This document shows, piece after piece, positions 8,540 to 10,374 of a stretch of 34,717 bases of DNA (the stretch's first letter is position 1; the number at the start of each line of letters is the position of its first letter). The translations under genes and the position numbers were made by a program. Location of the stretch: contig WAOK01000093.1 of NCBI GenBank assembly GCA_015521325.1, forward strand, positions 1 through 34,717, in the 5' to 3' direction. The notes below the pieces were generated by a model. It saw only the letters and a list, made by a program, of their open reading frames with translations, had not been told where the DNA came from and made no database searches. Source of the DNA: Desulfurococcales archaeon. GTDB taxonomy: Archaea; Thermoproteota; Thermoprotei_A; Sulfolobales; NBVN01.

Positions 8540-8570
8540 AGCCGGTCCCCGGTAGAGGCTACCGCACGCT

Positions 8571-8578
8571 TTATAAGG
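8571..8578 (+). promoter_or_regulatory. TATA-box-like element (TTTATAAG) of Ced-like operon
   Basis: TTTATAA about 25-30 nt upstream of TTG start at 8602. Confidence 0.5.
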
Positions 8579-8601: not shown

Positions 8602-8871
8602 TTGAGCATAGTTGACTTCGTTAGGGATATGACTGTCCAAGTGATGACGGTCGCGTGGTTCGTCTTTCTGGTAACTTGGGTTATTGGGTGGGCCATAAAG
8701 GGCTCGCCCATACCGTTCCACAGGGTCAAGAGGGCCGGGCAGTCCCTCGTAGAAGACGCTGTCCTCGCAGCCTTCTGGTTGGCCATAGGGACGACGGTGT
8801 TCGCCCTCATCTCCTACATAGTTTCCAACATCGGCACAGGCATGCCTCCACCGCCCCAGCCATGGGGATGA
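8602..8871 (+). CDS. small two-TM membrane protein, CedA1-like
   Basis: 89 aa, two hydrophobic segments, TTG start; immediately upstream of a CedA-like polytopic gene; shares a hairpin motif with its N-terminus. Confidence 0.75.
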   Translation: MSIVDFVRDMTVQVMTVAWFVFLVTWVIGWAIKGSPIPFHRVKRAGQSLVEDAVLAAFWLAIGTTVFALISYIVSNIGTGMPPPPQPWG

Positions 8872-8875
8872 TGCC

Positions 8876-10210
8876 TTGGAGCTCCTCACGCTCGCCGTCG
8901 CGCTAGCCTCGCTTACCTATGCCTTGGGGGCACTGATACTTGGTTTGCCGATACCCTACAGACCCCTCAAGCGCTGGGGCCCTAGGCTAATGGCGGACGC
9001 CGTCGCCACAATGATCATTGTGTCATCGCTCGGTATTCTGTTGTGGTTGTCCGATAAGGTGATGGAGATCATTGGGGTAACGTGGGGGAACTTCTACGAC
9101 TGGATGACGGTGAGGTTCACGGTACTCCTAGCGGTCTATGGTGTCTTACAGTACGTTTCCACTCTCCTCCATAGCTCTGGCCTAGACGTCCTCATCCCCA
9201 TAGTGTCGGGCACCGTCTCAGCAGTAAGCGCCGCGCTTACCGGGCTCAGGCTCATATTCTTCGTAGCCCTAGCCCTTCAGCGCCTGAGGTACTATTTCGT
9301 TGTCCTAGGCTCTGTCTTCTATTCGATACCCTTCAGGATCGGCAAGTCCGTCGGGGCCACGATGATCTCGATAGGTTTGGTCGCTTACATAGCGATGCCC
9401 GCCCTACCGCTCTTCGTGGAGGCATTCAGCCCGGATGTTCCCGGGCTCAGTATGCCCTCCAACCAGACATTCGTAGTGAATGTTAAGGACTCAGTGGGCA
9501 CCCCGGTCCCTTACCCGCTTCTCGAGCTCCGAAGCAGTAGGGGCGAGGTAGAGGGGATGATAGTGGGTGACATGTATGGGCGGGTAATACTTGGCGGAGG
9601 GAAGGATATGCTCCCGCCTACGTTCAACTACAGCGTTAGGGTGGGGTTCCTCGGCTACTACTTCGACACTGTCCCGAGTTTCATAACGGAGCTCAGCAAC
9701 GACTCAACCATAGTGATACCGAACCTCGTTTACTATGCTGGCGTCGGTGTGTTGACTCGTGGCGTGATGATGGATGTTGTGAGGGATGAGCCCGGGAAGA
9801 TAAGGCTCCGAGTGGTAGCGGTACTCACGTCGCCGGAGGTGCTGGTGACTAAGGTTGCCTACATAAGAGATGCTAGTGTGCGCGTAGGTAACGGTACATA
9901 TGAATGTCAATGGATTAGAAGTTATTGGCTCGACATACCGCTGGATACATGCCAAATCACAGGGCTCGAGAAAGGGAATATGCTGAGCATTGACTACCTT
10001 CCCGGTCCGTACCCGGGGCCGAACATCCGGGAAAAGAGAATAGTCTACGGAGACTCAGTCGAGGAGATGGTGGAGTCTTTAACTACGTACGCCGCTGCGG
10101 TGCTTTACAGGGAGCTCGTGCTACCGGCGATGTACATGGGGGTGGTGGCGTCCCTCACCGCTGCGGCGGCGAGGGTTCTCGGCGGCTCGATGAGGCTTCT
10201 TCCGAGGTGA
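8876..10210 (+). CDS. polytopic membrane protein, CedA-like DNA import protein with large predicted extracytoplasmic domain
   Basis: 444 aa; N-terminal TM cluster, beta-rich soluble region (about residues 185-405), C-terminal TM segment; TTG start 4 nt after upstream stop. Confidence 0.72.
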   Translation: MELLTLAVALASLTYALGALILGLPIPYRPLKRWGPRLMADAVATMIIVSSLGILLWLSDKVMEIIGVTWGNFYDWMTVRFTVLLAVYGVLQYVSTLLHSSGLDVLIPIVSGTVSAVSAALTGLRLIFFVALALQRLRYYFVVLGSVFYSIPFRIGKSVGATMISIGLVAYIAMPALPLFVEAFSPDVPGLSMPSNQTFVVNVKDSVGTPVPYPLLELRSSRGEVEGMIVGDMYGRVILGGGKDMLPPTFNYSVRVGFLGYYFDTVPSFITELSNDSTIVIPNLVYYAGVGVLTRGVMMDVVRDEPGKIRLRVVAVLTSPEVLVTKVAYIRDASVRVGNGTYECQWIRSYWLDIPLDTCQITGLEKGNMLSIDYLPGPYPGPNIREKRIVYGDSVEEMVESLTTYAAAVLYRELVLPAMYMGVVASLTAAAARVLGGSMRLLPR

Positions 10211-10215
10211 GCCGT

Positions 10216-10374
10216 ATGCTCAGTAAGAGGGACCTGTCCGTTGCCCTAGCTTTGCTGCTTGCCCTCCTGATCCCCGGCCTCATTGACAGGGTTTTGCTTT
10301 TCCTCTCCGCCCTCCTCGTTCTTGCTGTCAGCAGGCTTCATAGTGACTCTGGTGCCGAGGAGCCTGGAGAGTAG
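10216..10374 (+). CDS. unlisted 52-aa hydrophobic hairpin protein, CedA2-like candidate (MLSKRDLSVALALLLALLIPGLIDRVLLFLSALLVLAVSRLHSDSGAEEPGE)
   Basis: ATG 5 nt after the CedA-like stop, GAGGTGA Shine-Dalgarno-like sequence overlapping that stop, two hydrophobic stretches around PGLIDR; below the ORF-track length cutoff. Confidence 0.65.
   Translation: MLSKRDLSVALALLLALLIPGLIDRVLLFLSALLVLAVSRLHSDSGAEEPGE

Follow-up and report, generated by a model that had tools for sequence, protein, structure and literature searches.

Ancient paralogy of the CedA1 pilin and the N-terminal hairpin of CedA in a Ced DNA-import locus of an uncultivated archaeon

The closest described relatives of the locus considered here belong to the Ced system of Aeropyrum pernix and the Sulfolobales (CedA1, CedA, CedA2 and CedB, with CedD and CedE), in which CedA1 makes up the pilus, CedA is needed for import, and the cedA gene directly follows cedA1. 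CedA1, CedA2 and CedA form a membrane complex (PMC9905601). The VirB2 and VirB6 proteins of bacterial type IV secretion (R388 TrwI, A. tumefaciens) are likewise a pilin and a polytopic channel at the base of the pilus, helix 1 of VirB6 having been proposed as the site at which VirB2 is recruited. For R388, a VirB6 pentamer is the proposed pilus base, the top 50 co-evolving VirB2–VirB6 pairs all lie in VirB6 helix 1, and mutations in this helix reduce conjugation (PMC9259494). In the Ted system of the Thermoproteales (TedC/TedA), a pilin gene again adjoins a CedA-like gene, as in our locus; TedC has a cleaved signal peptide, and the Ted and Ced pilins share no sequence similarity (PMC9905601). 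The homology of CedA1 to the N-terminus of CedA, and its reading as a common origin, are already known from Beltran et al. 2023 (PMC9905601), who also reported a weaker mutual homology of VirB2 and VirB6. As the main point was thus published in 2023, the gain here lies in the motif, in the breadth of the survey and in the conservation of the turn only; the counts across genomes, the reciprocal monophyly of the two families and a profile test against the PDB that returned a single match are also new.

The source of the window, a stretch of 34,717 nucleotides, is an uncultivated member of the Desulfurococcales/Sulfolobales archaea whose own genome comprises 1.72 Mb in 103 contigs; its CedA1 has 97% identity to the closest named record, from a 'Desulfurococcales archaeon' MAG. 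The preliminary description had located a small CedA1-like protein and the N-terminal part of a CedA-like protein within positions 8602–9060, and both proteins were found where it put them (Table 1), with cedA directly after cedA1 as in the known Ced loci, on the same strand and after a gap of 4 nt. It had also taken the small protein for a member of the VirB2-like pilin family, and this was borne out, as CedA1 scored 124.2 bits against the NCBIfam CedA1 model (NF041797, cut-off 100) and matched the solved A. pernix pilin (PDB 8dfu_B) over residues 2–73 with an E-value of 3.7e-23. CedA scored 142.7 bits (E 1.5e-41) against the NCBIfam CedA model NF041796, under its curated cut-off of 330; with its 259 positions, this model is as long as the CedA of Sulfolobaceae, and the present CedA was therefore filed as a CedA-family homologue rather than as an equivalog hit. 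On these family matches, cedA1 and cedA are assigned as the predicted pilin and channel genes of a chromosomal Ced DNA-import system. The kinship of CedA to VirB6 comes from published profile (HHpred) comparisons only: a solved VirB6 was absent from the CedA matches in an hmmsearch of the PDB, and also from the 50 Foldseek matches listed for the whole of CedA, a fold search that the ectodomain dominates.

Table 1. Features of the cedA1–cedA locus, with positions in the window
Feature	Position	Strand	Remarks
Putative TATA-like box CTTTATAAGG, 5' of cedA1	8569..8578	+	read from sequence
cedA1	8602..8871	+	89 aa, TTG start; VirB2-like pilin, Ced DNA-import system
Pilin hairpin module of CedA1, residues 14-80	8641..8841	+	HHalign, CedA1 against CedA families
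CedA1 conserved turn GSPIPFHRVKRAGQSLVEDA, residues 34-53	8701..8760	+	core motif; invariant G, P, P, G, E, D columns
cedA	8876..10210	+	444 aa, TTG start; VirB6-like channel protein
CedA N-terminal pilin hairpin module, residues 3-69	8882..9082	+	PDB profile search and Foldseek
CedA conserved turn GLPIPYRPLKRWGPRLMADA, residues 23-42	8942..9001	+	core motif in 77/78 CedA, none elsewhere in CedA
Second P-x4-[KR]-x2-G motif of CedA, residues 145-164	9308..9367	+	candidate degenerate hairpin turn
CedA beta-rich ectodomain, residues 185-391	9428..10048	+	predicted strands, four N-glycosylation sequons
CedA2-like ORF by position	10207..10374	+	55 aa, hydrophobic; overlaps cedA stop

As its third gene, the locus has a divergent ORF, CedA2-like by its position, that is absent at this place in A. 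pernix. Although the ORF itself has no direct NCBIfam match, the Sulfolobaceae ORFs in the slot after cedA do match the NCBIfam CedA2 family, and 37 non-Sulfolobaceae ORFs from the slot, taken as a family, matched the Sulfolobaceae CedA2 with an HHalign probability of 89% (E 2.2e-6; reversed control 0.8%). Many genomes of the Desulfurococcales type have a comparable short ORF after cedA. At the level of sequence, this suggests that CedA2 is distributed more widely than in the Sulfolobaceae, although it is missing in A. pernix. The idea that CedA2 might be yet another copy of the hairpin, the third, was rejected, there being no match to CedA1 (HHalign 0.1%). In Acidilobaceae-like genomes and in Aeropyrum (loci L170, L174, L188, L197 and L200, and L107 of A. 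pernix), the CedA2-like ORF is replaced, directly after cedA, by a longer gene whose product begins with a hydrophobic segment and, in the complete examples, has about 500 aa; the presence of this gene in the A. pernix slot is consistent with the published absence of CedA2 from that organism. CedB-like and CedD-like ATPases are encoded elsewhere in the same genome, unlinked to cedA1–cedA: the best family of one (L118; G000:C51, about 176.9 kb) is CedB, with an E-value of 4e-57, and that of the other (L114; G000:C79, about 15.1 kb) is CedD, with an E-value of 6.6e-26, both below the equivalog cut-offs.

The likeness of CedA1 to the CedA N-terminus had been noticed as 14 identities in 34 ungapped columns, a count that proved exact for the strings starting at CedA1 residue 21 and CedA residue 10 (BLOSUM62 score 64); the full diagonal gives 19 identities in 78 columns. 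The Smith–Waterman score of the two proteins was 75, a value that none of 6,000 shuffles reached: these were run as three sets of 2,000, whose highest scores were 62, 70 and 68, and two of the sets kept the composition of helices and loop apart. The score was 29 for CedA1 against either CedA residues 71–444 or reversed CedA. Searched against the whole of its own genome, CedA1 found the CedA N-terminus at an E-value of 2.8e-4, and CedA found CedA1 at 0.02. Cross-matches were also seen with the NCBIfam models, the CedA1 protein matching positions 6–72 of the CedA model (E 4e-8) and the CedA protein matching the CedA1 model (E 1.9e-5).

Profiles of the two families, built separately from 73 CedA1 and 78 CedA proteins, aligned CedA1 residues 14–80 with CedA residues 3–69 (full-protein numbering) at an HHalign probability of 97.0 and an E-value of 9e-11, which is the HMM–HMM comparison proposed in the preliminary description. 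Nothing comparable was found when CedA without its N-terminus was compared with the CedA1 family (HHalign 1.1%). Both helices align, and so the original fragment of 34 columns had understated the extent of the module. A profile of CedA residues 1–70 had a single match among 177,635 distinct PDB sequences, namely 8dfu_B, with an E-value of 2.1e-11. The predicted fold of the CedA hairpin agrees as well: AlphaFold2 models the CedA N-terminus as two helices (residues 2–23 and 29–66; pLDDT 94.8), and the top Foldseek match of this predicted hairpin among 350,542 chains was 8dfu, the A. pernix CedA1 pilin (TMq 0.69, probability 1.00), with an E-value of 0.15; a hairpin of only 70 residues can be expected to give such a weak value, and the method also scores sequence. 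The profile alignment and the two matches to the solved pilin uphold the proposal that the CedA N-terminus is a paralogous hairpin and that the pair arose by duplication, and we regard it as virtually certain that a single two-helix membrane hairpin is ancestral to both CedA1 and the first ~70 residues of CedA.

The shared turn can be written as the motif P-I-P-x4-[KR]-[KR]-x-[GA]-x2-L-x2-D or, with alternatives at some positions, as the core motif P-[ILVA]-P-x4-[KR]-[KR]-x-[GA]-x2-[LMIF]-[ILMV]-x-D, which was slightly relaxed for searching. It is general, as the preliminary description had asked: all 73 CedA1 proteins and 77 of the 78 CedA proteins carry it, and it occurs nowhere else in any CedA. 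Of 144 genomes of the class, which represent almost only one order, 122 have matches to the CedA-N profile; there are usually exactly two per genome, and such pairs, among the matches listed, are CedA and the adjoining CedA1. Three or four matches occur in some Sulfolobaceae, which agrees with the CedE paralogue described for Saccharolobus. All 80 named loci have both genes on one strand, with cedA 4–69 nt downstream of cedA1; members of one family (G035, G045) have the two genes apart and still keep the motif. Both genes are present in 77 genomes, neither in 18 and one only in three, an agreement of 95/98, and the three one-gene genomes are two cases of fragments at contig ends and one genome that is 81% complete. 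Whole genera of the order are without both genes (genomes G010, G017, G022, G025, G028, genus g10, and others), and such joint loss fits an obligate pair.

A tree built from the 60 shared columns separated the CedA1 and CedA families completely, with reciprocal monophyly in 100/100 and a stem of 2.56 changes per column, from which it follows that the duplication is ancient and predates the spread of the order. With so few columns and an arbitrary root, the tree is silent on which protein came first. The similarity of CedA1 to the CedA of its own pair, 0.269, is only slightly above the 0.258 of cross-pairs, and co-evolution of CedA1 and CedA is thus not demonstrated; together with the reciprocal monophyly, this led us to reject recent duplication or gene conversion within the lineage. 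An origin from mobile elements was also rejected, as relatives of this pair were absent from viral contigs, searched with the CedA1 alignment only, and from 72,556 plasmids.

What CedA has kept of the pilin is concentrated in one region. Five of the 12 pilin-invariant columns are retained in CedA (G29, P36, P38, G46, as G or A, and D52), all of them in the turn and its flanks, while G34 is kept in only 23% of CedA proteins and W19, W26, W30, E51, G63 and F67 are missing. The distal part of helix 2 has lost all of its pilin-invariant residues (G63, F67). Several positions of helix 1 are also common to both proteins (A18/7, L24/13, T25/14, an aromatic at 26/15 and G29/18, in CedA1/CedA numbering). 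The solved A. pernix pilus has Lys15, a residue close to where helix 1 begins, in contact with the lipid head group that faces outward (PMC9905601), from which we infer that the turn should sit at the lumen end. Since W19, W26, W30, E51, G63 and F67 are missing, CedA is unlikely to pack throughout as an ordinary pilus subunit. That the turn end is kept and the distal helix 2 residues are lost favours docking or recruitment over a full imitation of the pilin that would carry on the helical lattice.

We therefore consider that the CedA hairpin would act as a resident pilin paralogue, staying in the membrane around the mouth of the channel and offering a like-with-like docking surface on which CedA1 may be recruited or added at the base of the filament, in the manner that VirB6 helix 1 is thought to serve VirB2. 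The basic turn (PIPxxxxKRxG..L..D) would be cytoplasmic in both proteins, and in an assembled pilus this side of the pilin would face the lumen. The CedA copy might line the channel mouth with basic residues as in the pilus lumen and present a similar basic rim to the DNA. The chances of such a docking or recruitment role appear about even to us; the overall explanation, of a Ced pilin/channel pair that are ancient hairpin paralogues with the CedA copy receiving CedA1, we hold to be fairly probable. The earlier suggestion of a template or adaptor joining the filament to the membrane base is a plausible hypothesis.

That the likeness is due to chance or convergence has to be considered because membrane hairpins have a biased composition and hairpins with the loop inside are often basic. 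Nevertheless, this is hardly credible, as shuffles that preserve composition and segments never reach the observed score, the remainder of CedA fails to match CedA1, and the only match of the CedA-N profile in the PDB is the CedA1 pilin. In the main rival explanation, both proteins would take one insertion route and the shared hairpin would be a signal for membrane insertion and export, or for extraction, with the PIP-KR turn recognized either by the machinery of insertion or by the ATPases CedB and CedD and with no direct contact between the CedA1 and CedA hairpins. Conservation centred on the turn, rather than on the pilin packing positions of distal helix 2, speaks for such a signal; a common export pathway has been suggested by Beltran et al., and the A. 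pernix pilin is reported to undergo no proteolytic processing (PMC9905601). The shared positions of helix 1, however, exceed the needs of a loop signal, and we see this explanation as a possible but somewhat doubtful one, which is in any case compatible with docking.

In a literal template, the N-termini of several CedA copies would make up a ring that serves as the lowest layer of the pilus and dictates the helical geometry of its lattice. The fold and length that the CedA hairpin has in common with the pilin speak for it, and the twist of 76.5 degrees in the A. pernix pilus (PMC9905601) corresponds to about 4.7 subunits in each turn, close to the pentamer of R388 VirB6. Against it, the distal packing residues G63 and F67 are gone from CedA, as are W19, W26 and W30 of helix 1, and the R388 model sets the pilus atop VirB6 rather than in the same layer (PMC9259494); we judge it unlikely.

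The remainder of CedA has features of its own. AlphaFold2 predicts six long helices and the ectodomain (mean pLDDT 92.3), and the hydropathy is compatible with six or seven membrane crossings. With six simple crossings, an external ectodomain would imply an external KR turn; seven fit the positive-inside rule, but need a split of helix 104–149, which is continuous in the AlphaFold2 model. The beta-rich ectodomain, with its four sequons, has no counterpart in the Sulfolobaceae CedA of about 260 aa, and its Foldseek matches are Ig-like and below significance. A second turn of CedA, SIPFRIGK..GA.LI, repeats the P-x4-[KR]-x2-G spacing found in the turn of the pilin, and its P152, [KR]157 and G160 are present in 78/78 CedA proteins. 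The hairpin around it scored 20.1 against the CedA-N profile, where the maximum of a permuted-column null was 16.8, but 15.9 against the CedA1 profile, within the null (maximum 20.2). CedA might have been assembled from more than one pilin-like hairpin, the N-terminal one recruiting CedA1 and a degenerate copy at about residues 120–184 lining the channel, a VirB6-like channel then having arisen by repeated duplication; we put this forward as a speculative and rather improbable extension.

Through this paralogy, both the filament of a DNA-transfer machine and its membrane channel can be traced to one ancestral hairpin. It also names the turn residues PIP, KR, G and D as targets for mutation. 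If the CedA copy is indeed a docking site, there would be a structural reason for VirB6 helix 1 to recruit VirB2 in bacterial conjugation. The co-evolution signal of R388 could itself come from the homology of VirB2 and VirB6, in which case VirB2–VirB6 co-evolution may partly reflect shared ancestry.
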